Of a stretch of 64,000 bases of DNA, positions 1-54,890 are shown piece after piece (position 1 is the first letter of the stretch; every line of letters begins with the position of its first letter). The stretch lies in NCBI GenBank assembly GCA_014871385.1, contig CM026421.1, positions 23,240,865 to 23,304,864 on the forward strand, given 5' to 3'. Under the pieces are notes generated by a model that was given only the letters and a program-made list of their open reading frames with translations, did not search any database and was not told the origin of the DNA. Position numbers and translations under genes: made by a program. The stretch comes from Ceratodon purpureus (Eukaryota; Streptophyta; Bryopsida; Pseudoditrichales; Ditrichaceae).

Positions 1-3000
1 ATTCGTGGTCCGAGTGGTAGATCGCCGAAGAAGCAGACGAAGAAACCCATGAAGGCCGAGACAAAAACTGTCCCTGATAGGTTGGCTGTGAGGACTTATG
101 ATATGGTGCTCAGCAGTTCAGATTCCGAGGCAGAGGCAGACAGTGACTTTGAGGCCTCGGACTCGCCCGTGGTGGAGCGAAGACCCCATAGTAGGCCCCC
201 GTTCATCGCCAATCCCGAGACAGCACCGACGCCTGCTGTTGTCCCTATCATCCTCTCACCGCCCCGGCGAGACACATCTGCAGGCGAAGACGACGCCACG
301 GGAGCTGTACCTGATACGTTTGTCGTTGTTCCTCGGGCAGGACTCCCTCCTCGACAGCGAGACAAATAAGGACGAGATATTTCTGTGAGGGCTTATAAGC
401 CGGTGAAGGAACTCGAGGACAGGGAGTTTAACTCTCGGAAAAAAAAACGCAAGACAACCCCGGCACAGAAGGTCCCAGCGGCAAAGAGCGAGACAAACAC
501 GACGGCAACGAAGCGACCGAAACCATCGGACGAGAAACCGCCATCCCCAATCCGGGACAAGACAGCCGGATACGCCTCGGATACGTCTCGGATACGTCCC
601 GGATACGGCTCTAATACGCCCGTCTCCACTCCCACTGTCCACACAGAGGATACTGGAGCGGAGGCTATGGTGGTCGACGAGGCCCCGATGGAGGTTCCCC
701 TGAGCACAATGTCCGCCTTAATGCGAGACAAGGAGAAGGTTGTGGAGGAGGCTCAAGAGGCAGCGGAGTCCCTGTTCACACTAGATCCAATTCGCCAGCC
801 CGAGACACGCTTGGGACACACGGGCCTCACCATCCTAATGGATTACGGACTTTTTGGGGAGGAGAGGGAGTTCCACACGTGGGACAGGGGAACTCTTCGG
901 ACCAGACTGGGGGAGTTTTTGAAGAAGGAGGGGCTCGAGACAATCATCTCGCTTACCTACTTCCAATTCCAGAAGTTGAATCGAAAGGTACGGCATCTCC
1001 TCCCTGGAGTTCTCAACTTATTTATTTTATAATAACTTGTATTTGTCGTTAATATGTTGCGATATTTTAATTCTTTTTCGTCTATCTTTCATACTTGTCT
1101 CGCACTTCAATCTGTGCCTCAAGGTTGCTAACGGGGGAGGACTGCCGTACTCTCTGAATTGCAGAATTCTCTATACTCCGAGAGAGATAGCGGTCTAGCG
1201 GCAGATCTTTCTGAAGTGTTGGACACCGGGGAAATGTCCGAGACAGAGATGGACCGTCTCGCGAACGCCTCCATGGACTACTACGTCAATGTCCACGACT
1301 CGAAGAAACACGAGGAGGCCGTAGATGCCCAGCGCCTTCATAACGCCAGTCTGAAGGAGAAATTCATCGCAGACAGGGTTGCAGCGTGGGAGGAGTCCAA
1401 GGCTGGGGAGTTGGAGGAAGTGTCATGGGGTTGGAATCCTCTGTACCACATATGCGCGAAGAACCCCGCTGTCTCGGAGAGGCTACCTCCCATGCCCTGG
1501 AAGCACAACGAAACGGAGGCGCGAGACGTGGTCAAGGCACTCGGTACGAGACGGACGCTGCCAATCGGAGCAGGCCTGGAGCCAAAGATCATTCGCGTTT
1601 TCCTCCTCGTCCACAATATTTGGTACAGGTCAGTAGAGTGTACTTGTTTATTTTTATTTTTTCGTCCTGAGGTACCTTATTCAATTCAAACTAATTTTGA
1701 AAAAAAAAAAACGGCACGGGCCCCTCATATTCTCCTCGTGCTCTGGTATACCAGCTCAGCGGACCCACTGCAAGGAGCACTGGACAAAAGTGTCCAGGAG
1801 AAGTTGTCTTTGCCTGGAGCTCTAGACACAGCGAGGTGTCTCGTTCAGGCCGCTGGGAGTACACTATTTGCTGCTGATCCAGTCGCGGAGACGGCGGACG
1901 CCATTACAGCAGCATGCATGTCCCTCCAGGGCGGTGTCTTGGATGCCCTGCAGGCGTGGCTCCTGACAGTCCAGGCTCGGGCACTGGAAGACTTTGCAGC
2001 TTCCGAGACGGAGTCCTTCATGACGGCGTGGCAGTTGACGGCGCCCGTCTCGGAAGAGGTATTCCTAGAGTGCTTGAATATTTTGCGACGAGCATTAAGT
2101 CGACGGGAGGACCTAGATCTCCGTTGGATCCCTCTCGCGGATGGTAAGTTCATATCCGACACAGAGGCCATGTTCTGATGTCTTGTAGTAAGAATGTCTC
2201 GGAAACAGTTCAGTCGTTCCGAAGCTAACGGCGTGGACCCTGTTTGCAGAGCCGGCCTGGGCCTCTGGTTTGCGCAGTACGTTGTCAGTGCGCACTTTCT
2301 TGAATGGTGTCGCTCAAGACCGGTGGTCCGCTGCCGAGACGGCTGTTGACGGGGTTTCGCGAGACAGGTTGGTGTACGGCCACTTGAACGTTCATGGTCA
2401 CCAAATACCTGTCGACGAACCTGCACAAGAGTCGGAAGGGACCGTGACAGCGAGCCCTTCATCCCCATACCACAACAAAATGAATGAGGTTGTTGACCTG
2501 GCCTCCGTGGATTCGCCTCGCCGGTACGAGAGCCCGCAAAAGGAGACTGCCTCATTCGAGACAGTGGCAGCCGCAAAACCCAGAGGTGAGTGTCCCGGAA
2601 CATGGACCCAAGAATTGCGAGACGGGTTCAGTTCCCTGCCATTGGGCGATGGCATTCCCTCTGCATCCCAGATGGACTGTTTCGGATTCTCGCAATTACT
2701 TTCTTGCACACCAACTCATCATACAGTGTCCAGAGAGACATTAATTAACAGGGGTTGCAATATTGTGTCTTTACTAGACGCAGTGGCGGCGTCCAAGACA
2801 GTGGTCGAGGAGGACAAGGAGCCAGAGTCAGACGAGGGACAGTCCTCTGGAATTGGGTCACGAGAGGAAGGACTCAAGATTTGGGACCTCGACTTTGGCG
2901 CACCAATACCGCCGAGTAAATTGAAACCGGGGAGCCACTGGATTTTTAAATTCATGGACCCTGCCACGCCTGTTCCGAACACATTGGAGCCCCCGAAGGA

Positions 3001-4424
3001 TTTCAAGACGGAGCTTGTCTCGGAGGGAGTACAGATGGATTGGAAGGCAGTGCTTGGCGTATTGATGATTCCATTCCACGTTGGCTGCTTCAAGTAAGTT
3101 CTTAAGTCCGTGAATGGCATGTTTTATTAGTCATGGTATGTTTAGGCTCGTTGCACGTCCATGTTTTTTATTCTTGAAAATGTTTCGCGGTGTCCCGAGA
3201 TCATGTTCCTATAGCGCTGTCCAGGTCGTACCCTGTCTCGGATCTAACATGATCACTGTCTCGTATTTCAGGCAAAGGCATGTGGACGAGATGGAATACG
3301 GGGATTACATCATCTACTTTGGTAACGACCCACGGATTGCCGTGAAGATCCCTGTCCTGGTCCAAGAGTGGGAGTGCGTACTGAGACCACAGGCGTGCAT
3401 GATTGGGCCATTCGTGGACCTCCTCCTTCGGCACTTGGTTTTGAGATCGCCGGACAACGTCGCGAGACAGTATGTGGTGGCAGAATCCAACATCAATACT
3501 GTCTTGGCTGCGCACATCCTGGAGTGCAACGGGGACTGGGAATGGCTGGGGAGTTTCGGAATCCGGTGGCTCTCAGGTTGCAATGGCCGGGAGAACACGT
3601 TGGTGATCCCTTATTGCGATAAGGATCACTGGACCCTGTTTGTTGTGGAGCAAGACACGACATATCACCTTGGATCGCTCCTCCACATACACGACACGGA
3701 GGCTCGAGACAACTTCGTCACGTTGGTGCACATCGAGTGGGCAAGCTCCAGGGGAATTGTTCCGGGATCGCAGGACTGGTGGAAGGTAGTGTCTCGCGGA
3801 TGTGTCTCGCTCAAGGCTCCGAAGCAGAAGGAGTCATGGGAGTGCGGTTACGCGATGAGTTTCCAGTTCTGGCAGTACATGGTCACTCGTGGATATGCTT
3901 GTCGTTTCCCGAAGCCTGCGGAGAAAATGAAGAAGAAGCGGTGGTTGAAATGGACTGGGCAGCAAATGCAGTTGTGGTTCATTGAGCAGCTGTACATCGA
4001 GACAGCCCGTGGGGACGACAGATTACCAAGACCGAGGATCTGCAGGACTAGTTTGCAGGACTTGCCTAACCTGATGGAGGTGGATATCGTTGTCCTGGAC
4101 TACGTCACAGTTAAAGGCGGGGTCCAAGTGTTCGGTATTTCGCCTGCGATGTCTCGGACCGGGTATACCGTGGATGCGTTCCACATCCGTGAACCACGAG
4201 CACCAAGTTCTGAGGAGGAGGAAGACACAAAGACGAGGCTCGGAAGCGCCACCAAGTCCAGGAAGTCTAAGCGTGAGAAATTCGAGAAGATGATGCACTC
4301 TCCTTCAGGCTCGGCGAGACGACGGCTGCAGACTGCGTTTTTCTTTTGGGGCGAGACAGGCAGGAGACTTGTACAGGACTGCTCAGTACATAGTACCAGT
4401 TTTGGGGATGGGAGCGAGACGTAG
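1..4424 (+). CDS. MULE-borne Ulp1-like (C48) cysteine protease gene, 5' partial
   Basis: Multi-exon gene, open at the left window edge. Exons by eye: 1 to about 986, 1163-1627, about 1757-2142, about 2251-3092, about 3272-4424, all joined by GT..AG introns that keep frame. The first exon encodes a charged, low-complexity region with a KKKRK-type nuclear signal near 440. The last exon carries the Ulp1 fold: His in KDHWTLFVV (codon 3627-3629), a likely catalytic Asp in HIHDTEAR (3693-3695), and Gln and Cys in APKQKESWECGYAM (Cys codon 3843-3845). Ulp1/SENP proteases remove SUMO; TE-borne copies are of unknown function. A TAA at 367-369 interrupts the first exon in frame, so either the gene is damaged or translation starts downstream. 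It faces the transposase gene tail to tail. Confidence 0.7.
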
Positions 4425-5359
4425 AGTTGTAGAGATGTAGTGCAGAGTTGAAGGACACAATGACAGTGTATAGATGAATGGTATAGTCCGAGACAGTCCA
4501 AGGAAGGGGAGTGACTGTCTCGCCTCTCGTTTGTAGTGGACTCGCTGTGAGTAGTTGAGAGCTCAGTGTCTCGTATGTGGGATGCTTGGCTCCCAGGAGT
4601 CGGAGAGGAAAGAAGAAATTTTTTTGTACAAAATTTTCCACGGGAAACCGTGTGACGTATAATTAGAAAACGGAAGATTCTTTTACATACGATACTTGTC
4701 TACATTGCGCATGAAAGAGTATCGATAATTCCTAAACTTCTATCCGAGACAGAACTTCAAAAAATTCGCTACAACACAATCTAGAGCTACAGTTTACCGA
4801 ATGCTGATGGTCCTAACATCCTCCTTGACCTAGTGGGGTTCCAGGGGGTGAGACACATGCCAACGTACGTAAGGGACTCGTAGTCGACCCCGTCTCGTCT
4901 CGAGACAGTTGGTGTTCGGGACTGCCCGCCAAGGTATTGTCTCGGTTTACGGTACACGTCCACCTGATTCCGTTTCGCACAGCTCATTCTCCGAGACGAT
5001 AATGCTATATCATATGATGCCTCCAAAAACAATTGCTCCAGTACCTCTAAAGCGTCGGCCTCCAATTCCTGGAGATCACAGCAGTCTGTGGCACCCGAGA
5101 CAAGCCCCTCTGGATGAACTCCCGGGACCGGGTCTTCCCTCCCATTGAAGAAGTTAACGTTCATGGACTCCATTCTGCGAACCCAAATTGTACGCCAAAC
5201 GCGAACTACAAAAACTGGTACCCCGTGATTATGAATCCCACTCAACACCAGCAGAAATAAAAGAAAGTACGAGTGGTGGCGGGTATACTTATAGGTAGAG
5301 ATCCCGCTGTCTCGATCCGAGACACATCAACTATAGAAATCCGAGACAGGGACGTGGGG
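4425..5359. other. Convergent intergenic region inside the MULE
   Basis: This is the 3' space between the Ulp1 gene and the transposase gene, rich in CGAGAC/GTCTCG (three copies overlap in 4890-4904). A minus-strand open frame at 4787-5248 (153 codons) has no recognisable domain; it could be a 3' exon of the transposase transcript or chance. No terminator-like element is identifiable in a plant context. Confidence 0.4.
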
Positions 5360-8300
5360 TCACTCCTGCGTGGATCTGGGCGGACGTCCGACGCGTCCCC
5401 CGTCGAGGAAATCCCTATTCCGTTTCAGCGAGTTCGGCTTGTTCGGGTCATTCCTCTCAAATCTTGGGGCGTCTGGCTCCGTTGGATGAAGGAGACCGGC
5501 TAGAATCCTCGTTTCCATGGCAGCGTGTCTTGTATTCATCTCTGCCGATTCCGCCGCCAAGTGCTTCTGAATGACATAGTGTCTCGCAGCTCGTTCCGTG
5601 ATTTCTCTTCCCGTTTGGTCTATGATGCGCTTCATTCTTGCCACCTCGTCTTCTTGTCTCGGTGGAGGGTCGACCGTGGGCACTTCCTGTGTCTCGCTGT
5701 TGGCATTCCAGTCTTCGGGCACATCCTGCGACGGTCCGGTTTCAGTCTCGCTTGGAATTCCCGGTCTCGGGGGATTTAGGAGAGCCGAGACACCGCCTAG
5801 CTTGGTACCGTACAGTGTCCCGCAGACCTTCACAATCGTCCCGTCGGCAAGGTCAGGCCTCATTACCCGAAGAACCTTCAGCTGATGTTTGCAAAGATTT
5901 CCTTTCTGGGCCCATACACATTTGCAAACAGCCCACTCGGTATCGGGGTTGTACACGGCGTATCTAATGTGGGCTCGCTTGGACGACGTGACTATGGCGG
6001 GGTCACCGGGTCGAGACGGCAGCGAGACAGAGGAGTTCGGGATCTTGTTCGCCGATATAATGGAGTTTCTAACGATCTGCTCTGCCTTCTTGTTCGTTAT
6101 GAAGCCATTCTCCTTCATTTACTGGTTGTAGTCCTATTTCGTTACGACGTCGTTTGTGAGCTCGTGAATGAGCCAATCGAGACGCCTTCCATCCAACCGA
6201 CTCTTCTCGGCCTTCAGAGTGGCCTTTGTGTGTCCATGATATGACTCAATCCCTGCGTTAGTGTCTTGACCAGCATGTGGTATGTGCCTGTTCCCTGTCA
6301 CCCACATTTCGGGCTTTATCATCCAGTACTTTTCAATGAACGCCCAGAATGCAGCAGCGCCGGACACCAATGTCTTCAGTCTCGCGAACCTAGCCTTCAC
6401 GTAGTCCAAGACAGACAACCTCAAATCGGGAGACTCCTCGATGTACATGAGCGCTCCCATTTCCCGCAGCGCCCACGCTCTGGTGATTATTCCTTTAATT
6501 TTGGCACAGGCGTTCTTTTGCCAGGCCCGCCTCACATGCCAGAGGCATAAGAATACTTTAATCTTCGGCCATACCAACCTATGAAACGCACGAGACATAT
6601 CAGAGGGACAGAAATGGAGATGCAGTATGCGTGATGGGGAATCACGAGACACTGTGTAGAACGGTATGTCACGAGACAGCTTGCGAGTCGGCAAATCACG
6701 AGACAGTACGCAGAAAGAGATATCAGAATACGTACATTATGGCGTTTATCTCAGCTAATGCATCATCGACAGTGAATGCACTCGGTAGCCACTCTGGCAT
6801 CTTCGAAACTAGCTTCTGCTTGATTGCGGTGAGCCAGGGAGTGATGTCTTTCTCTTTTGCGGATTGCGCGACAATGAAAGCAACCGGGACTCCATTCCGC
6901 CACTTGTCGAACACCATCAGAGTGTATAGGGGATACTGCAAGAGCGAGACAGATGTCAATGTCTCGGAAAACAAAATGAGTACTGAACGAGACAAGGTCG
7001 AAATATATGGGCCTCACCTTCCAATGATTTGTTCCGAACGTAGCGTCCATTGAGACAATACTTTCGTGGCCGTGTTGTAGCATCATCTTGAACTGGAACT
7101 CGTTTTGGATGCCGATGACAAACGGCAAATTCGCAGATGTGAGAGTTCCCGAGACAGTGCCTTTCTTAACGAGACGGTAGAAAAAAACATCGTCCGGGTT
7201 AGCCTCCACCCACATCTTCACGGATTCGGCGTCGTTGTCGTCTCTCTGATACTCTGTTTTCCTCAATTCCTTGGCGATGTTTCGGACATCCCACTCCCGT
7301 AGAAAGTGACATCGTTCAGGCGGAACACCCTGGGCTACGAGACGCATCACCTCGGCACGGTGGGTAGAAAGAATCTTGTTACTGGAAACGCCAGACCGGA
7401 GGCTCAACAGTACCCAATTCCGGAGCTCCGCCGGGATTTGTTTTTCGAAACGACCACGCTCGCCGGGTAGGACGTCGCCGTGGACCACTAGCGATGCAGA
7501 ATTTTCGTGTCTCGGATTATAATATACAATCTCGACCACGTCTTGGAGGTAGTAGAGCTGCTTCACCTGGAATCTGCACACGCATCCTCTTTTGATGCTC
7601 ATTCCACTCGCAGCAGCGCCAATTCTGGGCCTCCCCTTCCCACGCCCGTTGGGAATCAACTTGCCCTTGACGTTGTATTTCGGTTTCTTCGTCTCCATTT
7701 CGGGAGTAATTGTGAGGACCTTGTCGGACAAGTCCTTTGGCCCGTACTGGCACTCGTACCTGTGCCGAAAATACAACACCAAGTTAGCAAACTGTTATCG
7801 ACTGTCTCGGAACCCGTTTTGCGAATGCTGTCTCGTTATCAAAGAACATCGAGACGCGGACATCACGTATATACAGATAGAAGAACATAAAAAACGTTAC
7901 CCAGAAGTATTCGGTTTCGGAAATGAACTAACCAGAAAGTATGAAGGCCAGTATTGTGTCTCGGCTCGTGACCAGGCGGCTTCCCCTTGGGTCGTTTCAA
8001 GAATCTTGTCTTGACATCGGACCTTCGTTTGCTTTCGCCTTCGACGAACTCCTCCACTCTTTCCCACGGAATGTAAGCAACATGATACCTTTTCTCCGAG
8101 ACATCACCCTCGGAGCGCCCGATTCCAAGCCCGGACTCCGGAACGTTCCGTCTACAGTATTCGACAACATCAGGATACGAATTCGGTGAGCGGAAGTCCC
8201 ACTTGATGTCTTTGAACGTGAAGGGACCGCGAGGTGGGAACTGTACCGCGTCTCGGTATCCCTGCAGAATGTGACCGTTCTTCTGCATGTAGATTGTCTC

Positions 8301-8465
8301 CCACGGTCCAATCCAGGAGGTGTCTACCTCCACCTTCACGTCGACAGAATGAGAAGCCACGGTCGCTCCATTGTCTCGCGGAAGATCGTCCTTCAGGATT
8401 CGTCTCGCGGCGTCCTCTTGCAGGGTCTCCATCCCGACCGCACCTCTCGGGATATCACGCGTCAT
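5360..8465 (-). CDS. MULE transposase (MURA-like, SWIM zinc finger), probably disrupted
   Basis: This is a Mutator-family DDE transposase spread over several exons. Clear introns are 6936-7017 and 6579-6735; both rejoin conserved motifs in frame. A further intron lies between about 7973 and 7759, but its exact ends do not resolve. Order along the protein: an N-terminal region, a basic DNA-binding segment with Cys residues (GCVCRFQVKQ), first catalytic Asp in SMDATFGTNHW, second Asp in FTVDDALAEINAI, the CLWHVRRAW block, catalytic Glu in NAGIESYHG, then a SWIM finger CKC-x8-CKH near 5960-5895. Two in-frame stops, TAG at 6134-6136 and TAA at 6119-6121, fall between the Glu block and the SWIM finger. 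Both could be former CAG/CAA codons. The copy is therefore probably inactive unless the stops are bypassed, although the rest of the frame is intact. Confidence 0.75.
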
Positions 8466-9150
8466 GCATCACAACAGATTGCGCTTGTCCCGCAAACAGC
8501 TGCGGTACAAGCCGATGCCACTCCTGTAGACACCTTCGGTCTCGCGTTCACGGGTTCGGCGTCGACACGGCCAAAGAGACGAGCGGTATCGGACGATGCA
8601 TCGCGGGAACATGCAAGACACAGGGAGGGCACCGAAACGGGTCCGCCGTAGACAGACACCGATGCCACTCGTCTGGGCCTGGCGAGACGGCGGGTAACCC
8701 TAGAATTTGAAAACGATAGAGCACTTAGAGACAACAAACTCCCGCCTGGGAATCGCGAGCGGGAAACCAAGACGAGACTTATTCCACGTCTCAGTCCTAC
8801 GAGAGGGAAGCCCCGGAAAGGTAGGAAAATCTCCATGCATGCCCATGGGCCATGGTGCCATGAGGCTGTCTCGCGAGACAGCCCATGCATGGGGTGTCTC
8901 GTCTTTCTGGGTTCCGAGACGAGACAAGGTGGAGGATGCGGACGTGGCAGGGAGGGTTTCGAGACGGGGTCCGACGTGGCATCCCGAGCCCGGGCACGGC
9001 TCGCGAGAGGGGGGGAGCGACGGAAAGAATTCTGGAGCGTAAGAAGGGTCTCGCGCCGTGGGCCATGTCTCGCGGGACCGCCGCGGAAGGGAACAGAAAT
9101 AGCGAACGCCATTAAGACGAGGGCGAGGATTATAGTCAGGGACAAACTTC
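8466..9150. other. Transposase upstream / element terminal region
   Basis: GC-rich stretch upstream of the transposase start with about a dozen CGAGAC/GTCTCG hexamers and nested palindromes (8831-8892). Open frames here on both strands have unusual composition and no domain; I treat them as chance. It is likely to hold the transposase promoter and the element's right terminal region. Confidence 0.4.
8864..8883. repeat. Perfect 20-bp palindrome made of two facing CGAGAC motifs
   Basis: The sequence ggctgtctcgcgagacagcc reads the same on both strands. It consists of GTCTCG and CGAGAC abutting at CGCG. Further self-complementary words, CCATGCATG, CCCATGGG and CCATGG, lie just left of it, and CATGCATG lies just right. 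It sits upstream of the transposase gene, so it may be a dimeric binding site for an element protein. Confidence 0.8.
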
Positions 9151-11601: not shown

Positions 11602-12649
11602 CCCCTAAAGTTCCTTGACTATGTTTCACCAAAAAACGCTCCAAAATTGCCATTTCCAATGTAAAAAGCATGAATGACTAATTTTTTTTTTTTCTTCCTA
11701 ATTCTAACCATAAGATCTTCAACTAGATTACTGTAATTGACAGCTCAAAAAAATTCAATATAATTGGCCGTAAAGATAAGAAGATTTTAGTAATTGAAAT
11801 TTGAAAACAAACTTTTATGACAAGATTTTTGACTAGGTTGATACACTCTAACTTTTTTTCCCTTAGGTTTCTTGCATTGTAGATTGTGGGGGTTTTGATG
11901 CGTGTCAAAGAAGACTAAGTTACCTAAATGTATTAAAAACATTACTCTCAAAAGTCAAGTGTAGCATGTTGAAAACAATATTCTTATTAAGTTGAATACA
12001 AAAACATGCTAATTTATAATTTATTTCCTAGAAATTCCATTATTTAATAAAGTCTCAATCCAAACGGTCAAAGTAAAGATTGATATCCATCCTTTCACTG
12101 AAGAAAAGAAAAAACCTAAAATAATGCTTTTTCTAACTTTTATGAAGGAAAGAAGAAGTTTTTTTTTTACACAGCCCGAAACGGTGATAAAACTTTGATA
12201 TTTTGTGGAGTGAACATTATGCACTCAAAGTATTTTTTTTTGAAAACCTCAAAGATGACATCATAAAGTATTTCTAGAAATACTTTTTAGAGGTAATTGA
12301 TATATTTAGCATGGCTGCCCGAATTGCCCTTTGAGCAGCTTTTTCCACTTTGGGTACCATAAGTATTTTTATAAATGTCCAATTGAAAAAAAATAGACTC
12401 CCTCAAAGTTCTTGTTATAGCCTATATTCACAAAAAGTTTCAAAAAATCTTGACTTTAATTAGAGTCACAGGTACATGCCCAAATTCTAAAAAAGCCCAT
12501 TCTAGGACTAAGGTAGAGGGCCCTAGAACCGACCCCCTGTTTCCAAAACCGATCAGGCTAAAATGTACAAACTAGGTACATTTTAGCCTGATCGGTTTTG
12601 GAAACAGGGGGTCGGTTCTAGGGCCCTCTACCTTATTGTCCTTTAGGAG
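11602..12649. mobile_element. Non-autonomous TIR element, CCCCTAAA family, copy D
   Basis: Begins CCCCTAAAGTTCC and ends GTCCTTTAGGAG, flanked by TTAA at 11598-11601 and 12650-12653. Total length is 1048 bp, but 127 bp of that is the hairpin insert at 12509-12635, leaving about 920 bp, close to copies A and E. It has no coding capacity. Confidence 0.6.
12509..12635. repeat. Perfect 60-bp inverted repeat, 7-nt loop (foldback MITE)
   Basis: The arms 12509-12568 and 12576-12635 are exact reverse complements over all 60 bases, separated by aaactag. Each arm begins TAAGGTAGAGGGCCC. The block is much more GC-rich than its surroundings and lies about 14 bp inside the end of copy D. The outer TA dinucleotides could be a TA target duplication as in Tc1/mariner-type MITEs. 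As RNA it would form a long perfect hairpin suitable for DCL processing. A sequencing foldback artefact is possible but less likely. Confidence 0.9.
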
Positions 12650-41837: not shown

Positions 41838-44800
41838 CTCGTACCATCACCGAGAACCTTCGTAATGAGACTGCTCGGGGCCAAGCACAGTTGGATTGGG
41901 ACAATCGCGGACAGAATTCGTCTCTCCCAACATTCATCGATTCGAGATGAAAAACAAACATGTGATGGGAGTGCCCAAGTGTGCTCGGCCCCGAGCACAC
42001 TTGCTCCAGCACTGCTAGACACTGCGGAATGAGCACTGACCTGAGGTAGAGGGAAACGCGAGGTATTGATCTGAAAACTCTCATTCGAAATTAACTATCA
42101 ACATTGATGTGAACTTTCGACATACCAAGAGACTGAATCACTGGTTTTTTTTAAGCTTAAATGAATGTTTAGAATTAAGGAAATAATAGTGTTAAGGGAT
42201 AAGCAACGGATACTTACCTCACGCAGCCACGCTGGTGTTAGTTCAGGGTTCGCCACGGCAAGAAACTTAGTCATTTTAGAGCGAAGTTTTCGTGTTTCGC
42301 TCTTCACCGCGGCCTTCATGGCCCTAATCTTATCAGCTTCTGTGACATCGCCGTCGTTGTGTTCCAAGAACCCTCGAAGACCATCATCAGCGGCACGGCT
42401 TATCTCATGCTGCAATACCAATCCAATTCCCACAGGGGCAAATACCAACTTAATGTCAAATACGAACTTAGTCAGACAAGGTTCTTTAAAGCCAAGCTAC
42501 CAATGATCCAATGATGCTACGATAGAGATTTAGCATAGTCTGCGATGGACATAGATAGATGATGCTGAATAATGCTACATAGACCAGGGCAGACCATGAT
42601 GATCATCCACTGCTGATGCCCCATGGCATTCGACAAAGACTAGGACAGCCTGCGTGTGGTTTTTGGGGACATTCGAGATTATTGAAATCATTAGCCAGTG
42701 AACCATGCAGAAAAATTAAATAACAATGAAAGGGGATCATGAAAATGTACCTGGAAAATGAAACTCGTGAACACGTTCACAGGCAAGGTTTGCCAAGTAC
42801 TGTGCTTTGTTTTCTTGCACCTCTTCAAATCAATACTTGACAAAATTTCAGTGAATTGCTCCAGTGGCATGAGGCCGTACTTCTGTACCCTGAAGAGGGT
42901 GTGAACTGGATTGGTCTTAACATGAGCATCCTCCGTGTTCCTGTCACGCAAAATATCAGCACAGGAATCAAATTATAGAATGGTTTCTAAAACAGCTGAG
43001 TGTATTGAAGGTGCTATTGTTTAAGGGTGCAACTCACTTGTTGATGTTGTGCATCACCTGCATTACTAGGCCAATTCTACCTCTAGTTTCCAAGAGAATA
43101 GAATCAACCGAGTAGTGCCATGACTCATCCGTCTTGTGCAGGCGCTCAATGTGGTTCCACCAGGCCTGGTACCGATGGTTACCGTCGCAAACAAAAAACA
43201 TCAGATTGGTAAGGGAAGCCAACTCGGGAATGGAGAGAAGGTAGTTGTTGAGTTCATCGTTTTTCTTCTCCCAAATTGGTCCCCACTTGGCCTTGTCAGT
43301 ATCAGAAATCTCCCGGGTTCTCCCCTCCTCGTCAGTGGTTGACAAGTAGAATACCGAGGCACCCTCGCGATAGCCATGCACAAATTCCTGCTCAAGTCTG
43401 GATAGATCACTCTGTAACGTAGGCCGCACCATCGGCATTGCAAGCATACGGCAAAGAGGAACTTCAAATCTTGATGCATAATGTGGCTGCATTCGGAGCT
43501 CAGCAATTGTCGAAACAGAATTTAGCTTCTGGCGGTTCCGAATTTCGTCCTCATTCCCCACAAATGTATCACCAGTTGAGTCCGCTTCTCCATCTGAATC
43601 TCCATCTTGACCGTCAGATTTTTGGGTCAGGGCCAGTTGGGACTCATCCAGATTGCCTCCTACTTCAAGTTGGTGCTCCTGTAATCTCAAGCAATACCAC
43701 ATTAGAAAGGCGAATGCTGAATTCAAATTTTACGAGAGAACGCAGAGCAGCAGGTACAAAGTTCTGATCAGAGTTATGCATGATCAAAGTTCTTCGATAC
43801 GTGGTTGAAGACAGAGCACAATAGTTGCCAAACGAAGAAAGAGTAATATCCAATATGAATAAGTATTGATCAATAGCCCTTGCTTCAATTTAAACTCATT
43901 ATACGGCCTCAATTAAAAAACAATGTACCTAATTCTCAACAGAACTTCGCAGCCATCACAGGAAGCAGAAGAATTAGTACACTATGTCACACCTCACTAT
44001 CCTCTGTGAGTCGATGAATTCAAGTAAATAAAAAAGAAATTTATCCTGCTCGGCCCAAACCAAATGTCAACGACCACCTGAACGACATCAAATAAGTCCA
44101 AACAACGCTGCTGCAAGCAAGCTAGGAGACGAGCAGACCATCAGCACATGTCTCTAAGCTTTGTGTCTTTCCTGCCAGGACTCTGCCACGGCCCTTGCAC
44201 CTTGCTCCACCAAGTCAATGCAGTTGATTGACCACCCTCCTGCGAGTCTGCTCACTTGGTTAAACTACATCGATTTAGTTCTAAGATGACCCTGGTGCGA
44301 CTCTGCTCGGGCCCTTCCAGCTGGTTACACTACCGAGATCACATGCCTTCAAGTGCCTGATGCAAGTCTGCTCGGGCCCTTCCAGCTGGTTACACTACCG
44401 AGATCACATACCTTCTAGTGCTTGCTGTGAGTCTGCTCGGGCCCTTCCCCCAGGTAATACTACCGAATTCTAAATTCATTAGAGCGTACTGCGAGTCTGC
44501 TCGGGCCCTTCCAGCTGGTTACACTACCGAGATCACATGCCTTCAAGTGCCTGCTGCAAGTCTGCTCGGGCCCTTCCCCCAGGTAATACTACCGAATTCT
44601 AAATTCATTAGAGCCTACTGCGAGTCTGCTCCGGCCCTTCCAGCTGGTTACACTACCGAGATCACATACCTTCTAGTGCTTGCTGTGAGTCTGCTCGGGC
44701 CCATCCACCTGGTTACACTACCGAGATCACATACCTCCAAGTGCCTGCTGCGAGACTGCTCGGGCCCTGTTACCTGGTTACACTACATCATTCCAATATT

Positions 44801-47800
44801 TTTTTCGAGAAATACCAAGGAATAAGCTCAATATATGAACATATCCGGGCCGAGTTGACTTCTGAACCAACAAATGAACTGTGGATTTACGTAATCATGA
44901 TAGTAAGAAGTATAAAAATGAATATGTTCGTCTGGGAGATCTACTTCTATCATTTTCTACACTTGATTTTGTCATTTGTTTCAATATTGCGAGTCTGCTC
45001 GGGCCCTACCCCATGGTTACACTACCGAGATCACATACCTTCTAGTGCCTGCAGAGAGTCTGCTCGGGCCCTACCTCCTGTTTGCACTACCGAGATGACA
45101 TACCCTCAAGTACCTGCTCCAAGTCTGCTCGGGCCCTTCCCCCTGGTGATACTACCGAATTCTAAATTCATTAGAGCCTACTGCGAGTCTGCTCGGGCCC
45201 TTCCAGCGGGTTACACTACCGAGATCACATACCTTCTAGTGCTTGCTGTGAGTCTGCTCGGGCCCTTCGAGCTAGTTACACTACCGAGATCACATGCCTT
45301 CAAGTGCCTGCTGCAAGTCTGCTCGGGCCCTTCCCCCAGGTAATACTACCGAATTCTAAATTCATTAGAGCGTACTGCAAGTCTGCTCGGGCCCTACCTC
45401 ATGGTTACACTACCGAGATCACATACCTTCTAGTGCCTGCAGAGAGTCTGCTCGGGCCCTACCTCCTGTTTGCACTACCGAGATGACATACCCTCAAGTA
45501 CCTGCTGCAAGTCTGCTCGGGCCCTTCCAGCGGGTTACACTACCGAGATCACATACCTTCTAGTGCTTGCTGTGAGTCTGCTCGGGCCCTTCCAGCTGGT
45601 TACACTACCGAGATCACATGCCTTCAAGTGCCTGCTGCAAGTCTGCTCGGGCCCTTCCCCCTGGTGATACTACCGAATTCTAAATTCATTAGAGCCTACT
45701 GCAAGTCTGCTCGGGCCCTTCCAGCGGGTTACACTACCGAGATCACATACCTTCTAGTGCTTGCTGTGAGTCTGCTCGGGCCCTTCCAGCTGGTTACACT
45801 ACCGAGATCACATACCTTCTAGTGCCTGCTGCAAGTCTGCTCGGGCCCTTCCCCCTGGTGATACTACCGAATTCTAAATTCATTAGAGCCTACTGCGAGT
45901 CTGCTCGGGCCCTTCCAGCGGGTTACACTACCGAGATCACATACCTTCTACTGCTTGCTGTGAGTCTGCTCGGGCCCTTTCAGCTGGTTACACTACCGAG
46001 ATCACATGCCTTCAAGTGCCTGCTGCAAGTCTGCTCGGGCCCTTCCCCCAGGTAATACTACCGAATTCTAAATTCATTAGAGCGTACTGCGAGTCTGCTC
46101 GGGCCCTACCTCATGGTTACACTACCGAGATCACATACCTTCTAGTGCTTGCTGTGAGTCTGCTCGGGCCCATCCACCTGGTTACACTACCGAGATCACA
46201 TGCCTCCAAGTGCCTGCTGCGAGACTGCTCGGGCCCTGTTACCTGGTTACACTACATCATTCCAATATTTTTTTCGAGAAATACCAAGGAATAAGCTCAA
46301 TATATGAACATATCCAGGCCGAGTTGACTTCTGAACCAACAAATGAACTGTGGATTTACGTAATCATGGTAGTAAGAAGTATAAAAATGAATATGTTTGT
46401 CTGGGAGATCTACTTCTATCATTTTTTACACTTGATTTTGTCATTTGTTTCAATATTGCGAGTCTGCTCGGGCCCTACCCCATGGTTACACTACCGAGAT
46501 CACATACCTTCTAGTGCCTGCAGAGAGTCTGCTCGGGCCCTACCTCCTGTTTGCACTACCGAGATGACATACCCTCAAGTACCTGCTCCAAGTCTGCTCG
46601 GGCCCTTCCCCCTGGTGATACTACCGAATTCTAAATTCATTAGAGCCTACTGCGAGTCTGCTCGGGCCCTTCCAGCGGGTTACACTACCGAGATCACATA
46701 CCTTCTAGTGCTTGCTGTGAGTCTGCTCGGGCCCTTCCAGCTGGTTACACTACCGAGATCACATGCCTTCAAGTGCCTGCTGCAAGTCTGCTCGGGCCCT
46801 TCCCCCTGGTGATACTACCGAATTCTAAATTCATTAGAGCCTAGTGCGAGTGTGCTCGGGCCCTTCCAGCGGGTTACACTACCGAGATCACATGCCTTCA
46901 AGTGCCTGCTGCAAGTCTGCTCGGGCCCTTCCCCCTGGTGATACTACCGAATTCTAAATTCATTAGAGCCTACTGCGAGTTTGCTCGGGCCCTTCCAGCT
47001 GGTTACACTACCGAGATCACATGCCTTCAGGTGCCTGCTGCAAGTCTGCTCGGGCCCTTCGCCCTGGTGATACTACCGAATTCTAAATTCATTAGAGCCT
47101 ACTGCGAGTCTGCTCGGGCCCTTCCAGCTGGTTACACTACCGAGATCACATGCCTTCAAGTGCCGGCTGCAAGTCTGCTCGGGCCCTTCCCCCTGGTGAT
47201 ACTACCGAATTCTAAATTCATTAGAGCCTACTGCGAGTTTGCTCGGGCCCTTCCAGCTGGTTACACTACCGAGATCACATACCTTCTAGTGCTTGCTGTG
47301 AGTCTGCTCGGGCCCTTCGAGCTAGTTACACTACCGAGATCACATGCCTTCAAGTGCCTGCTGCAAGTCTGCTCGGGCCCTTCCCCCTGGTAATACTACC
47401 GAATTCTTAGTTGAGAAGACCTTGCAGCGAGTTTGCTCGGGCCCTTGCCCCTGGCAACACTAGCGAATTCTAAATGGAGAAGAGCCTGTAGAGAGTCTGC
47501 TCGGGCCCTTCCACCTGGTTACACTACCGAGATCACATATCTTCAAGTGCCTGCTGCGAGTCTGCTAATCTTTGGCTATGATGACCTACGATATGGCTAT
47601 GATGACCTACGATATGGCTATGATGACCTACGAAGAGGCAATAATGACATTTCAAATGGCTGTGATTTCCTGTTATGCTGTGATTTAGAGCAATCCTAGA
47701 ATCTTCAAATGTCGGAATGTGATGGTCCATATGCCTTAGCAATAAGACCGTACTAACTTGACTTCATCTAGTTGAACCGAAATACACGAAGACCTTGACA

Positions 47801-50051: not shown

Positions 50052-50354
50052 TATAGGTCCCAGGAGTCGCGTTTATTGGTTACATCTAGCCCATTATGAA
50101 TTGAGTGGTTCCAATGTAACACTGAACTATTCCCGTCCATTTTTCAGGATAATATTTTAGGAAGTTGCTGTGATTAAGTCATGACAGTCGTATCCCAGCC
50201 TCTGGATTAATTCTGCTGATTAGGGCGGGTACGTGTACTAATCCCTATGTAATAAATTACAGTTGCCAAAATAAGTACGTACAAAGCGTCTCATTAAGAT
50301 TACAATGCTAAAGCATGCAAATTCGGGTTCCTTCCTATTCCACCACTCGTAGAT

Positions 50355-53300
50355 ATGCACTCGATGATTGAATTTGGCGTCATACTTAACCATGGGAGAA
50401 TTCTTATGCGTCTTCACCTCTTTGTTTTTTATTCCTCTTTAGAGTTCTCATTGTTGCAGGTGCCCCTTAATCTGAACACGATGGCCTTTCTTTGTGCGGA
50501 TTCGCATTCCGTTCCTATTACCTTTCCTCTAGGTGTAGATGGCCGCGCTATGATCAGTTCCACCACTCTGAGTCTTCGATTTCGGTTTCGTGAGGAATCA
50601 CTGCATGTAGAAGAGGAGTTCTTTGACGATATCACCGGTGCTCTCTCGCATGCCGTTGGTCAGTTGTCAACTCAGAATGAGATTGGAACGTTCTGGATTC
50701 TCAAACCTGGAAAGTATAGAGTTTACGGAGTTCCTGAGTCTCTACTAGCTACCTCTACTGAATTGCTTACTCCCCGATCGTCCACAACAGTGTGCCTTGA
50801 GTCTGAGCCGTTGTTGAGGAAGGTCAAGACCGAGCCAGGTCTTCAGACCATCTATGAGCTCAGTGATGGCTCCGATGGTGAAAACGCAGACGAGATTCCG
50901 GTGACCCATGAGAGCAAGGAGAAGACTCTACCAGTTGCAGATGATAATCGTGAGGAGGTGGTTGTCCCTGTGGAGTCCTCGGTTCCTTCTAGTGTTGCAG
51001 ATGATAATTGTGAGGAGGTGGTTGTCCCTGCGAAGTCCTCGGTTCCATCTACTGTTGCAGTCTCCCCTTCAGAAAGTGTTGTTCAATGCCTCATGAAGCT
51101 TAGCGCTCGTAAGAGGTCAAAGAGTGTTCTGTCGCGCATCAATTTTAATGCAATTAGAATGCAGGAAGTTCAATACCTTCCACCTCAGTACAACGGCGAT
51201 GTCATTTTCGAGTTCCCACCCCTAGGTGCTCACGGTCATCATTCCGCTGCAAAGCAGCTACGGGGAATGGATAGAAAATACGATGGACACCCTTGGACTT
51301 GCACAGTGACTTCAAATATTCAGAACGACCTGAAGTTGGTCTTCCGTTCTTCGTCGTGCCTTGGCCATCTCCGTTGTGACAATGTCAAATGTGAGTATCT
51401 AACACGTGGAAACAGGACTTCGGTAGTGAACGAGACTGAATGGGATGGGATATCTGAGAGACTGTTTGAAGTCGGATCTAACCCGCCGCAGAGTTCTAGT
51501 GTGGTCTGTAAGTCTTGCAATACACCACCGACCTGCGTTGCACTTTGCCCTGCAAGGATATACTACGTCAGTGCTGGACCTCACATGACGAGAGCATGCG
51601 TTCATCTGGGAACTCATGACCATCCAGTGAAGTCCGGCGAGAACCGCGATTTTGTCGAACACACGGAGAATTTGATCAGGGAGTAGGTGGAGCGTACTCC
51701 ATCCGCCACCAATTCCGCCATCGTCCTCGAAACTGCGAAGGAGCTGCTGGGCCCATTACTTCTGGCCAAGGAAGGTGAACCGCAGAAGATTCTGGAATTG
51801 GAGGAGCTCGAACCAATCTTCGACCGCTGTAAGCACCTTTCTTCCCTAAACATCAGAAATTGCATTACCTCGTTCAAGGCTGTTAGACGCTTTGGGACCA
51901 TGGACAGCATCAGAATGCTGCGAGGCTTCAGCAACTAGAAGTTTATCCAAAACAACTTGTTTCCGGGGCAAGGCGATGATGCTGCGAAGGTGTATGTCTT
52001 CAAGATGTCTGAGGTAGGGCCGGGTAGTGGAGTCGATTTAGTTAAGCGTATACAGACTGGCGGTGACTTGGAGAATGCGTGGATCATGTTTGACCACGTG
52101 AGGCGAGTCAGGGATTGGGTTACGATGGCTTGCCACGTCTATGACCCCACCTATTGTCGGATAATGACAATCGCAGCGTGCGATATGCAGTCGGAGGACA
52201 CGGCTGCCCAGTCCGTCCTCTGGAAGAATCTGAATGCTATCATGCAGACTCACGGGGTCGAGAGAGTTAACTTTAAGGGCTTCATGGCGGATGGTGCCCA
52301 AGCGAACTTCAATGCAGTTCGCATTATCTATGGAAGCGGTAACGCCTCCGAGATGATGATTGATAGGGAGAGGACATGCCTATTCCATTGGAGGCAGTCT
52401 CTAGAGCAACATACAAAGGCTCACATTCGTCCGGACCTCCGAGCGCAGCACATCAAACTCTGCCAGCAGTACAAGAACGCCACGACTATGGCGGAAGCTG
52501 AAACAATGTTCTTGGCAATCCGAGCATGGTGGATGTCATCCGGCGCTGCAACAGAAAAAGGGCTCTCAGATCTGGAAACGTGGCTTTCGTTCTGGCACTA
52601 CCGGTATCGCCAATGGGGAGGTTTCATGGAATTGGTAATTAAACCCTATCCTTTAAATCTCTGTCGCATCTGAAGTTTGGTGCCCTACAGTTAGGTATTG
52701 GACACTCAGATATCTAACCTAACCTCCACTGTGTGCAGAATCACAGCGAAGATGAGCTCGCAGAGATGCCGTCCTGCAACCTTGCTGAATCAATCCACAA
52801 CCGGTGGAAGCAGCAGTCCGGAGATCGTGGTAGCGACTTGTATGTTGCAGCTGTGGACGACTTTGTAAGGGCCTTCATGCAATGCGTTGCCTACTTCCAG
52901 TTCTTGAAGGGGGAGCGTCCCGGGAAAGGTCCGTCCAAAGAGGAGCTGAAGCTCCGACGTGCACAAAGATCTGCAGCAAGGACAGGAAACCCGAAAGTCC
53001 TTCACGAAGCGATTATGAACATGCCAGGAGCGGACGAATGGTGCACCAGGGACCCGCATCTTGAAGGGGAAGAGGTCTGTGTCTCTCTAAAACGAAAACC
53101 TGATGTTGCCTTTGGAGATGAACGGGAGTCTCATAGGCCAGACAAGATCAGCGTGTCAAGACCTCGTGTCCAAACTAGAGCTGCACGCCGGGAGAGCGAC
53201 TATCCTCCGACGGTGGTAATAACGGACTCTCCTACAAGCAGCGAAGAGGACCAAGCCGACCTTCAACCTGACCAGTCTCCACCTCGAGTGGACTACCATC

Positions 53301-54190
53301 ACGTCACTTCAGTTGAGGAGACCGCCTGCAACCCTTCTGAGTGGCACATTGCACGACTTCCTAAGACATCCGCCAAGGCGTGCTTCGCCCAACATGCTGT
53401 GACTAAGAAGAAATGCGTGGCACGGATCGTGCAGCACGGGAAGAGCACTGCGGCGCCGACATACACGGGCCCCATGAAGAACTACAGGAAAGACAGAATA
53501 GAGACTCATCAGTTCTTTTTCTGCAATGACGACATTGACAGGTGCGTCAAGGGTAGCAAACGGAAGTGGGTCCTATCGGTGCCAAAGGTACCTGAGGTGT
53601 GGCCCGTGAAACTTGGAACAAAGTTGACGAAGAAAGAGATACTTTCTCTAGAAAATGCCGGGTTCAGACTCCCGCAGCAGAAGGAGATGTCACCGAGAAG
53701 ACTCTTTCAAGACCGGGCAGCGGCAGTGGACTTCTCGGCCTACCCTACGCCGGCATACCCGGACGAGTTCTCTACCCGGCGATCAGTAAAGCTCATCCGA
53801 CGGAACAAGAAGGCTCCGTCGACCAAGCACAGCAATAATTGTGCCTCCGCCTTATCGTTGCAAGCGAAGGTGAGCAAGTTGTGCATGCTGCCTGCCCCAG
53901 CCCTCGGATGCATCGTCACATTGGATTCTGGGAAGCCTCCAAAGGTACAGCAATATTACCTGACCATATCGCAACACCCTGCCTGCACTTGCCCGAATTT
54001 CAAGGAGATGGCAATTGCGGCACTTGGGAAGCGGGGTCAACGGGCTAATTGTAAGCATTTGTATTACCTATTCAGTGTAGTCTGCGGTCTTGAATCAGAG
54101 TCGGATACTTTCATTCATGCAGCTAGTTTTAGCTTCAACGAAGTGAAGCGAGTCCTGGTGAGTGGCCTTCTGAAATTCTTGGAGACCTAG
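50355..54190 (+). pseudogene. MULE-like transposase with two in-frame TAG codons
   Basis: One reading frame runs from 50355 to a donor near 52636, then from about 52739 to the stop at 54190. Order: Cys/His-rich DNA-binding region (CLGHLRCDNVKCEY, then CKSCNTPPTCVALC and HLGTHDH, WRKY/GCM-like spacing), first Asp in MTIAACDMQ, second Asp in FMADGAQANF, CLFHW, then catalytic Glu in NLAESIHNRW. Last comes a SWIM finger, CTC with a distant CKH, at about 53983-54060. TAG codons at 51684-51686 (between LIRE and VERTPS) and 51936-51938 (between GFSN and KFIQN) interrupt an otherwise intact frame; both could be former CAG. An acidic linker duplicates 'VADDN.EEVVVP' near 50930-51050. Confidence 0.7.
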
Positions 54191-54403
54191 TGATATCTGA
54201 GTTGGTGTTCGCACATGTGTAGCCTGTATTTATTTTAATGGTGAAGTAGTGAGACTAAAAGGGCCACTACCAAAAATTTGCACTAGCACTGGATTCCATT
54301 TCCTCAAATTCGTGTGAGTCTCGCTCTGAATATACATTGGCTCCGTAAAGAAGTATTTTCTACTAAGCAATGTAAGGAACTGTGTAATCCCCAATAGAAT
54401 GGA

Positions 54404-54890
54404 GTCACGTAAGTGTACTCGGGACCGAGCAAACCTTTTTCAGTGTTTAGGAGGGGGTCATGTAAGTGTGTTCGGGACTGAGCAAACGTTCTCCAGGGTT
54501 AAGGAGGGGATCACGTAAGTGTCCTCGAGACCGAGCAAACATTTTTCAGGGTTTAGGAGGGGGTCACGTAAGTGTGCTCGGGACCGAGCAAACATTTTTC
54601 AAGGTTTAGGAGGGGGTCACGTAAGTGTGCTCGGGACCGAGCAAACATTTTTCAGGGTTTAGGAGGGGGTCACGTAAGTGTGCTCGGGACTGAGCAAACG
54701 TTCTCCAGGGTTAAGGAGGGGATCACGTAAGTGTCCTCGAGACCGTGCAAACCTTTTTCATGGTTTAGGAGGGGGTCACGTAAGTGTGTTCGGGACCGAG
54801 CAAACGTTTTCCAGGGTTTTGGAGTGGGTCACGTAAGTGTGTTCGGGACTGAGCAAACGTTTTCCAGGGTTTAGGAGTGGGTCACATAAG
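54404..54890 (+). repeat. 53-bp minisatellite carrying TGCTCGGGACCGAGCA
   Basis: About nine to ten copies at a constant 53-bp spacing (54411, 54464, 54517, 54570 for the aagtgt word). Each unit contains the near-palindrome TGCTCGGGACCGAGCA, then 'ttttcagggtttaggagg' and GTCACGTAAG. It lies downstream of the transposase and shares TGCTCGG with the 44.3-47.6 kb satellite. Confidence 0.95.

Follow-up and report, generated by a model that had tools for sequence, protein, structure and literature searches.

A MULE at the left end of the window (the whole 64-kb stretch of moss DNA analysed here) is saturated with one short word, CGAGAC/GTCTCG. The saturation is independent of coding, the copies in non-coding DNA are constrained, their positions turn over, and a sister clade in the same genome is enriched for a different word. 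Our preferred reading, to which we assign a probability of about 0.5, is that the extended form CGAGACR is a lineage-specific address of the MULE, and that it would be read by a protein encoded by the element, most likely the product of its second gene (U), so as to counter silencing.

Structure of the element and distribution of the hexamer

The full MULE extends from window position -1966 to 9141 (11,108 bp); its left part lies outside the window, and the first-pass annotation was mistaken in placing the whole element inside it (Table 1). MULE target-site duplications are typically 8-11 bp long. Duplications of 9 bp are found at the window element and at copies c6_434, c11_120, c6_5828 and c6_5835, the last two sharing one, and no matching duplication is present at c7_27, one of the six full copies; the nine-copy alignment leaves out copies c6_588 and c10_140. 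In c6_434, the exon model of the window transposase gives an open protein of 886 aa with a PF10551 match (E 3.7e-15, 56.6 bits, cut-off 27.6) and, by eye, a SWIM-like C-x-C...C-x-H stretch. The PF10551 domain of this spliced transposase, together with the 9-bp duplications and the terminal inverted repeats (TIRs), bears out the earlier assignment to the MULEs. The window copy of the transposase has two in-frame stops in its last exon, and its single exons gave no PF10551 match and no convincing match to any other Pfam family.

Table 1. Features of the MULE, in window coordinates
Feature	Position	Strand	Basis and details
MULE part inside window	1..9141	.	blastn against ten other genomic copies, target-site duplications, hexamer counts; 88 of 109 hexamers
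Second gene (U)	1..4424, start ~-443	+	inferred exons to 987, 1165-1628, 1755-2143, 2250-3093, 3272-4424; joins approximate
Ulp1-like catalytic stretch	3627..3848	+	alignment and 6dg4 match; conserved His (DHW), Gln and Cys (ECG)
Spacer separating the convergent gene pair	4425..5359	.	13 hexamers, 4489 to 5342
Transposase gene	5360..8432	-	inferred exons 8432-7933, 7759-7018, 6935-6736, 6578-5360; splice sites placed by GT/AG and an open frame
Transposase intron, 82 bp	6936..7017	-	hexamers at 6945, 6961, 6988; 37/kb, densest of 12 features counted (in c6_434)
Right TIR, ~317 bp	8825..9141	-	97% identical to left TIR at -1966 to -1650
Right 9-bp target-site duplicate, acaaacttc	9142..9150	+	left copy directly before -1966

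By count, window positions 1-9150 hold 88 hexamers (CGAGAC 50, GTCTCG 38) and the remaining 54,850 bases 13, in agreement with the 85-90 and the dozen or so estimated earlier. None of 100 dinucleotide-keeping shuffles of the whole 64-kb window was as high as the observed 101 (shuffle mean 18.1, maximum 27). The earlier chance expectation of 4-5 is correct as a uniform-base figure, but the element's own dinucleotide frequencies give 9.8 for the full 11,108 bp, in which 109 are found. The six full-length copies carry 109-114 hexamers each, compared with 0.27/kb in flanking DNA, and the density ends at the element's right edge, 9141. Each TIR contains 8, with none in the outermost 69 bp; in c6_434 the hexamers run from position 70 (first start) to 11031 (last end) of 11100.

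As had been claimed from the first reading, hexamers occur on both strands, in exons, introns and spacers, and, within coding segments, in each of the six frames, though unevenly (sense 12/8/15, antisense 11/5/4). The TIRs hold them too, and one of the seven introns counted in c6_434 has none. Non-coding DNA is denser than coding DNA (12.7 versus 8.4/kb), with 10 hexamers in the 413 bp of the three transposase introns, 12.6/kb in the intergenic spacer of c6_434, and dense 5' spacers and TIRs; 55 of the 114 hexamers of c6_434 lie in coding segments. The spacing along the element is broad, and the strands are nearly equally used (58 versus 51) without order, which fits duplex DNA better than RNA. 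The base following the hexamer is A in 75 and G in 26 copies, so that 101 of 109 read CGAGACR, with about 2.5 expected for each of CGAGACA and CGAGACG. Other one-base variants of CGAGACA are rare: CAAGACA is the highest at 12, followed by CGGGACA (6), CGAAACA (5), and TGAGACA, CGAGACC and CGAGACT (4 each).

Codon independence, constraint and turnover

The codon-preserving shuffles, set beforehand as the refuting check, did not reproduce the counts in either gene. The U exons (3.9 kb) contain 35 hexamers against a shuffle mean of 8.3, and the transposase exons 20 against 3.3, with 0 of 1000 shuffles as high in each case; protein coding thus fails to explain the hexamers, as the first-pass annotation had argued, and the same holds in the relatives. 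Among the coding positions that permit the hexamer, 55 of 103 are occupied, compared with 2-13% for 12 decoys. The five rows (four arrays) that Tandem Repeats Finder reported for window 1-9150 include two that touch a hexamer, one in each case. Since the flanking preference reaches no further than about one base ahead of the hexamer and two beyond it, the copies did not spread as parts of longer repeats.

The hexamer bases show fewer changes than predicted from trinucleotide context in 12 of 13 comparisons (for example, 7 versus 17.7), the remaining one showing no deficit (4 versus 3.7). When compared with 47 decoy words, non-coding hexamers changed less often in all eight comparisons (P < 0.05 in four), and coding hexamers in six of eight (P < 0.05 in one), with more changes in the other two. 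Between subfamilies the hexamers are therefore conserved above decoy words, clearly so outside coding sequence only and weakly inside it. Exon hexamers that could be aligned with the distant loci L030, L031 and L032 number 14, 8 and 17, and these loci have 12, 7 and 15 of their own in the aligned exons; 3, 2 and 2, respectively, are common to both. The positions turn over while the enrichment is kept.

Related elements and the U protein

All relatives were found with the transposase as query. Checked for a loss of the enrichment, the full-length copies were found to keep it, as were all four distant relatives sampled from their transposase clade (clade 1), which have 45-65% protein identity and few hexamer positions in common. 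The sister clade is different, since in all eight sampled loci CGAGAC occurs only 1-3 times per 5 kb, and GTGACACTG-like sites number 8-15 versus 1.1-2.4 expected (the weakest locus, L038, has 8 versus 2.4). The sister-clade word is GTGACAYTR (YGTGACAYTR), its excess lies mainly in non-coding DNA, and the split between the two words agrees with the tree of transposases (support 1.0). That a single host harbours two words speaks for readers encoded by the elements, and enrichment for another word in the sister clade is what the VANDAL precedent, discussed below, would predict. A genome-wide search with three clustered hexamers was not element-specific (331 matches versus 410 in the reversed control); simple or tandem repeats account for many of the places first listed.

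The U protein is large; its N terminus is Cys/His-rich and the last exon of its gene Ulp1-like. The window copy of the gene has a premature stop at window positions 367-369. Opposite the catalytic Asp, the window copy has Gly and the L041 protein, from the sister clade, has Asp. The earlier call of an Ulp1 gene, here a putative one, is supported at the profile level, where a two-sequence profile of the region matches the Ulp1-like SUMO protease 6dg4 (E 3.1e-5), but single proteins fall below the Pfam cut-off: the L041 protein reached E 0.19 and 12 bits for C48 (cut-off 20.7), and the window's U exon gave no C48 match. Searched singly against the PDB, the L041 protein gave four weak matches, none to proteases, and the predicted structures were unusable (pLDDT 42 for the U N terminus, 30 for the Ulp1 region). 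In the U pieces scanned, each shorter than the spliced protein, Pfam found neither a recognised DNA-binding domain nor the VANC families DUF1985/DUF287. The statement that the element carries an Ulp1 gene instead of VANC may be a false contrast, the Cys/His-rich N terminus of U being itself a candidate reader. Matches to the Ulp1 region lie within 10 kb of four of four sampled clade-1 transposases, two of eight sampled sister-clade loci and 21 of 89 distant transposase rows, the rest having no such gene or one too diverged. Among L030, L031 and L032, three distant clade-1 loci, a neighbouring U-type N-terminal domain is found only at L032 (39%), and the domain thus does not track CGAGAC cleanly.

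Possible readers of the word

Under the preferred reading, CGAGACR would label the whole MULE, and U, with its Cys/His-rich N terminus and Ulp1-like C terminus, would be the most likely candidate to bind the many double-stranded copies. Such binding would keep the element's chromatin open, the dense word countering silencing from end to end, and selection for density would make and maintain copies through single substitutions wherever neutral or synonymous change permits. The mode would resemble VANDAL/VANC anti-silencing, but its sites are scattered, use both strands, extend into exons and would have arisen by point substitution. More tentatively, and a little short of an even chance, the entire element body, exons included, could serve its own address protein as an array of binding sites, with synonymous recoding filling about half of the permitted positions, sites turning over while saturation lasts as long as the clade itself, and sister lineages switching the word (CGAGACR versus YGTGACAYTR); this would amount to a whole-length DNA coat or self-recognition, separate from VANC or far diverged from it.

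In the VANDAL literature consulted, VANC is the Arabidopsis precedent for anti-silencing through a short word, with YAGTATTAY as the motif of VANC21 in VANDAL21/Hiun, and AGTTGTCC and AGTTGTAC as those of VANC6 in VANDAL6/8 (PMC5735166, PMC10398659). The same sources place the motifs chiefly in non-coding tandem repeats in a single orientation, and give VANDAL TIRs of 46-174 bp or none (PMC5735166, PMC10398659, PMC6446971). So far as these sources go, the moss MULE shares with VANDALs the 9-bp duplication, a SWIM-type transposase, an extra gene, and a short word per family, with a related family in that genome having a word of its own (here four of four clade-1 and eight of eight sister-clade loci). 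It differs in its moss host, its 317-bp TIRs, its lack of a VANC homologue recognised by Pfam in the pieces scanned, and its dispersed sites, which occupy both strands and the exons of both genes and hardly fall in tandem repeats. The Kaonashi (KI) MULEs likewise carry Ulp1/C48 genes (PMC6117577; Hoen et al. 2006 as cited there); the consulted passages of PMC6117577 make no mention of word saturation in them, and the C48-like domain of the moss MULE is, in comparison, highly diverged, with the Gly noted above. Among the literature matches listed, there was no report of the CGAGAC word or of word-saturated moss MULEs.

If the preferred reading is true, sequence-specific counter-silencing by transposons extends beyond Arabidopsis VANDALs to a moss-type genome, where it can even remodel coding sequence. 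The two clades with two words in one genome would then be a natural experiment on the joint change of a DNA-binding specificity and about 100 target sites, and would supply a compact word/protein pair with which targeted methylation removal could be tested.

The TIRs of maize MuDR are bound by its own protein MURA, at terminal sites; the moss sites are comparable in this respect but fill the entire element. That the transposase likewise binds the hexamer here, and coats the element to transpose it or pair its ends instead of to counter silencing, we regard as unlikely. The dense TIRs and transposase introns would suit it, as would the recovery of all relatives with the transposase query and the scarcity of the Ulp1 region near sister-clade loci, but the outermost 69 bp of the TIRs are free of hexamers, and occupation of more than half of the permitted exon positions in both genes is not needed for end recognition. 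Less likely still is a host reader, be it a defence factor or a transcription or chromatin factor that the element puts to use: six bases is a usual size of host factor sites, and the TIRs and 5' spacers are dense, but the sister clade prefers a different word in the same nucleus, and a defence target should disappear, yet the non-coding copies are constrained. We give slightly less credence again to the hexamer working through the DNA itself (nucleosome exclusion, methylation resistance or replication) with no dedicated reader, since a single exact word is preferred here and another exact word in the sister clade, for all that strand symmetry, broad spacing and a CpG content close to expectation are in its favour. 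A mutational or compositional artefact is scarcely credible: codon usage and amino-acid composition do lift the shuffle mean in the U exons, but the shuffles (including those of relatives), the decoy occupancy, the higher non-coding density and the repeat scan led us to reject codon use, amino-acid content and tandem duplication as causes.

With hexamers masked, the observed/expected CpG ratio is 0.90 in the element and 0.61-0.72 in the rest of the window, which would suit the preferred reading. Twelve relatives, similarly masked, give 0.76-0.91, so this ratio is not special to the present MULE family and may reflect youth.

Hexamer density within and outside coding sequence

By count, CGAGAC/GTCTCG occurs 88 times in window positions 1-9150 and 13 times in the remaining 54.85 kb, and this total of 101 compares with a maximum of 27 in whole-window shuffles (n = 100). 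The window belongs to a genome of 362.5 Mb, and comparison with ten other genomic copies places the limits of the MULE at −1966 to 9141 (negative positions lying upstream of the window), so that the window cuts an 11,108-bp element whose inverted repeats measure ~317 bp (97% identical) and whose target duplication is 9 bp long. The full element holds 109 hexamers versus 9.8 expected from its own dinucleotides; the six full-length copies, the window's among them, carry 109-114 each, and their joint flanks contain 14 in 51,150 bases. Two copies, c6_5828 and c6_5835, have common flank ends and target duplication and diverge by 0.06%, and therefore represent a single insertion that was later duplicated. 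They lie near 58.28 and 58.35 Mb of the 110-Mb contig C6 in opposite orientation, ~67 kb apart, as a recent duplication.

In c6_434, another copy of the family, nine conservative coding segments (6,534 bp) hold 55 hexamers (8.4/kb), and the 4,566 bp outside them hold 58 (12.7/kb), with one more straddling. The exons of the transposase gene contain 20 hexamers, against a mean of 3.3 and a maximum of 10 in 1000 codon-preserving shuffles, and those of the second gene, U, contain 35 (mean 8.3, maximum 17, again 1000 shuffles). Where synonymous choice would permit the hexamer it is present at 55 of 103 coding positions, compared with 2-13% for 12 decoys chosen at random among words made up of those letters. 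Arg-Asp is encoded by CGAGAC in 12 of 17 cases and Val-Ser by GTCTCG in 11 of 20. A coding effect as the cause of the excess is rejected on the shuffles and on the occupancy of permitted positions relative to decoys. The density is uneven, with 25/kb in each terminal inverted repeat, 17-37/kb in the transposase introns and 0-9/kb in the four U introns.

Genes of the element

When spliced at inferred sites, the c6_434 transposase is open over 886 amino acids and matches the MULE domain with a score above the cut-off. The U gene, likewise with inferred splice sites, is convergent to it, Cys/His-rich at its start and with a diverged Ulp1-like domain at its end; a two-sequence profile of this region matches the Ulp1-like SUMO protease 6dg4 at 3e-5, while the single proteins fall below the Pfam cut-off. 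In the window copy (3627-3848), a Gly is aligned to the catalytic Asp that is kept in a sister-clade protein (L041:658-1500) and in the solved relative, and this Ulp1-like domain may thus be a pseudo-protease. The inferred U start codon is overlapped by a hexamer (L009:9550-9560, GCGAGACATGG; L009 is a genomic piece numbered from upstream of the element). Stops interrupt both genes of the window copy. Among the segments examined in nine aligned copies, c7_27, c6_5835 and c7_167 have no stop, and c6_434 has none within them but one just upstream; thus, open or nearly open copies exist.

Constraint, turnover and a second word

Eleven comparisons between subfamilies 2.8-3.7% apart gave 4-11 changes at hexamer bases versus 16-27 predicted from trinucleotide context, and two between copies 0.6% apart gave 4 versus 3.7 and 0 versus 5.6. 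Set against 47 decoys, hexamers outside coding sequence changed less often in all eight comparisons (P below 0.05 in four), and those within it less often in six of eight (P below 0.05 in one) and more often in two. The comparisons in both tests have sequences in common and are not independent.

Base preference around the hexamer is limited to a shortage of T just before it, R in position 7 and, weakly, G in position 8. Since, in addition, its strands follow no order along the element, its spacing is broad (mean 101.5, SD 87) and tandem repeats are few, the copies did not spread within longer repeated units; the simplest route would be single substitutions favoured by selection. At site 5764 the window copy reads CGAGAC where the other eight aligned copies read CGGGAC, which looks like a one-step gain. 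Seven of the 11 private hexamer losses of the window copy are CpG-type transitions, a share as would be expected of a dead, methylated copy.

Twelve more distant relatives were hand-picked from 118 transposase-match rows and a 5-kb piece of each was taken; this word sampling covered loci L029-L040, which lie outside the transposase groups of 35-38% identity. The transposase tree separates two clades with support of 1.0. In the window's clade (clade 1), L029, L030, L031 and L032 (65, 46, 49 and 45% protein identity) carry 26-29 CGAGAC per 5 kb, about half the density of the window's family. Their exons hold 9, 12, 7 and 15 hexamers, against codon-shuffle means of 1.8, 1.1, 1.1 and 1.5 and maxima of 7, 6, 6 and 6, and pooled they show a weak preference for A as the next base (35 A, 25 C, 33 G, 16 T). 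Few positions are held in common with the window's family: 7 for L029 (19 in the family, 9 in L029), 3 for L030 (14 and 12), 2 for L031 (8 and 7) and 2 for L032 (17 and 15). Judged from these alignments, hexamer positions turn over within the clade.

The eight sister-clade loci (L033-L040) have 1-3 CGAGAC per 5 kb and 8-15 sites within one mismatch of GTGACACTG, versus 1.1-2.4 expected, with a consensus of about YGTGACAYTR. The excess is weakest in L038 (8 versus 2.4), and an unbiased list places other hexamers ahead of this word for L035, L036 and L038. Since L035/L036 are 99% and L037/L039 91% identical, the eight loci amount to about six lineages. Coding stretches hold 1-2 sites in six of the eight and six in each of L035 and L036, so the sister clade, with its word mostly outside coding sequence, looks more VANDAL-like. 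Given the tree, one word switch is enough for the loci sampled. Both words have GACA in common, after G-A or G-T (CG-A-GACA versus YG-T-GACA), and speculatively may be a drift of one specificity. Ulp1-region matches lie within 10 kb of all four sampled clade-1 transposases, two of the eight sampled sister-clade ones and 21 of 89 distant transposase rows overall. The sister-clade locus L041 encodes an 809-aa Ulp1-like frame with DHW, YHLDS and ECG stretches, and has seven GTGACAC and zero CGAGAC. In the transposase frame at L033:444-2864, the N-terminal part is separated from the catalytic domain by a long insertion rich in Lys, Arg and Pro, which by eye resembles AT-hooks.

Candidate readers and neighbouring features

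Three observations point to readers that the elements themselves encode: a separate exact word in each of two lineages sharing a nucleus, the constraint, and the turnover of positions while saturation persists. The near-equal strand counts point to duplex DNA as the form recognised. The U protein is the first candidate, since it has a Cys/His-rich N terminus and evolves fast: no matches to its linker exon turned up outside close relatives and L029-type elements. As a counterpoint, of three distant clade-1 loci just one had this N-terminal domain next to it; the transposase is the other candidate reader. The precedent is the Arabidopsis protein VANC, which is associated with a short word that differs between related families, and with loss of methylation across the whole element (PMC5735166, PMC10398659). 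The logic of a word-addressed MULE would be similar here, but tandem, non-coding arrays in a single orientation were looked for and not found, and no VANC homologue was recognised in the U pieces scanned; the element is therefore read as a variant of a word-addressed MULE.

Further features in and near the window
Feature	Position	Setting or basis
Perfect 60-bp inverted repeat, 7 nt between arms	window 12509-12635	AT-rich DNA right of the element
Long frames in which CSGP..LHYRDHIPSSACCESARA-like units recur (translated repeats)	window about 44612-47393	
Frames similar to a further transposase; a SWIM-like C-x-C...C-x-H stretch is present	window 50298-54190	by eye
Tandem repeat, units of ~303 bp, 97-98% identical	L009 3478-4916 (window −6522 to −5084)	upstream of the element

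Three CGAGAC lie at 54318-54738, near the transposase-like frames.
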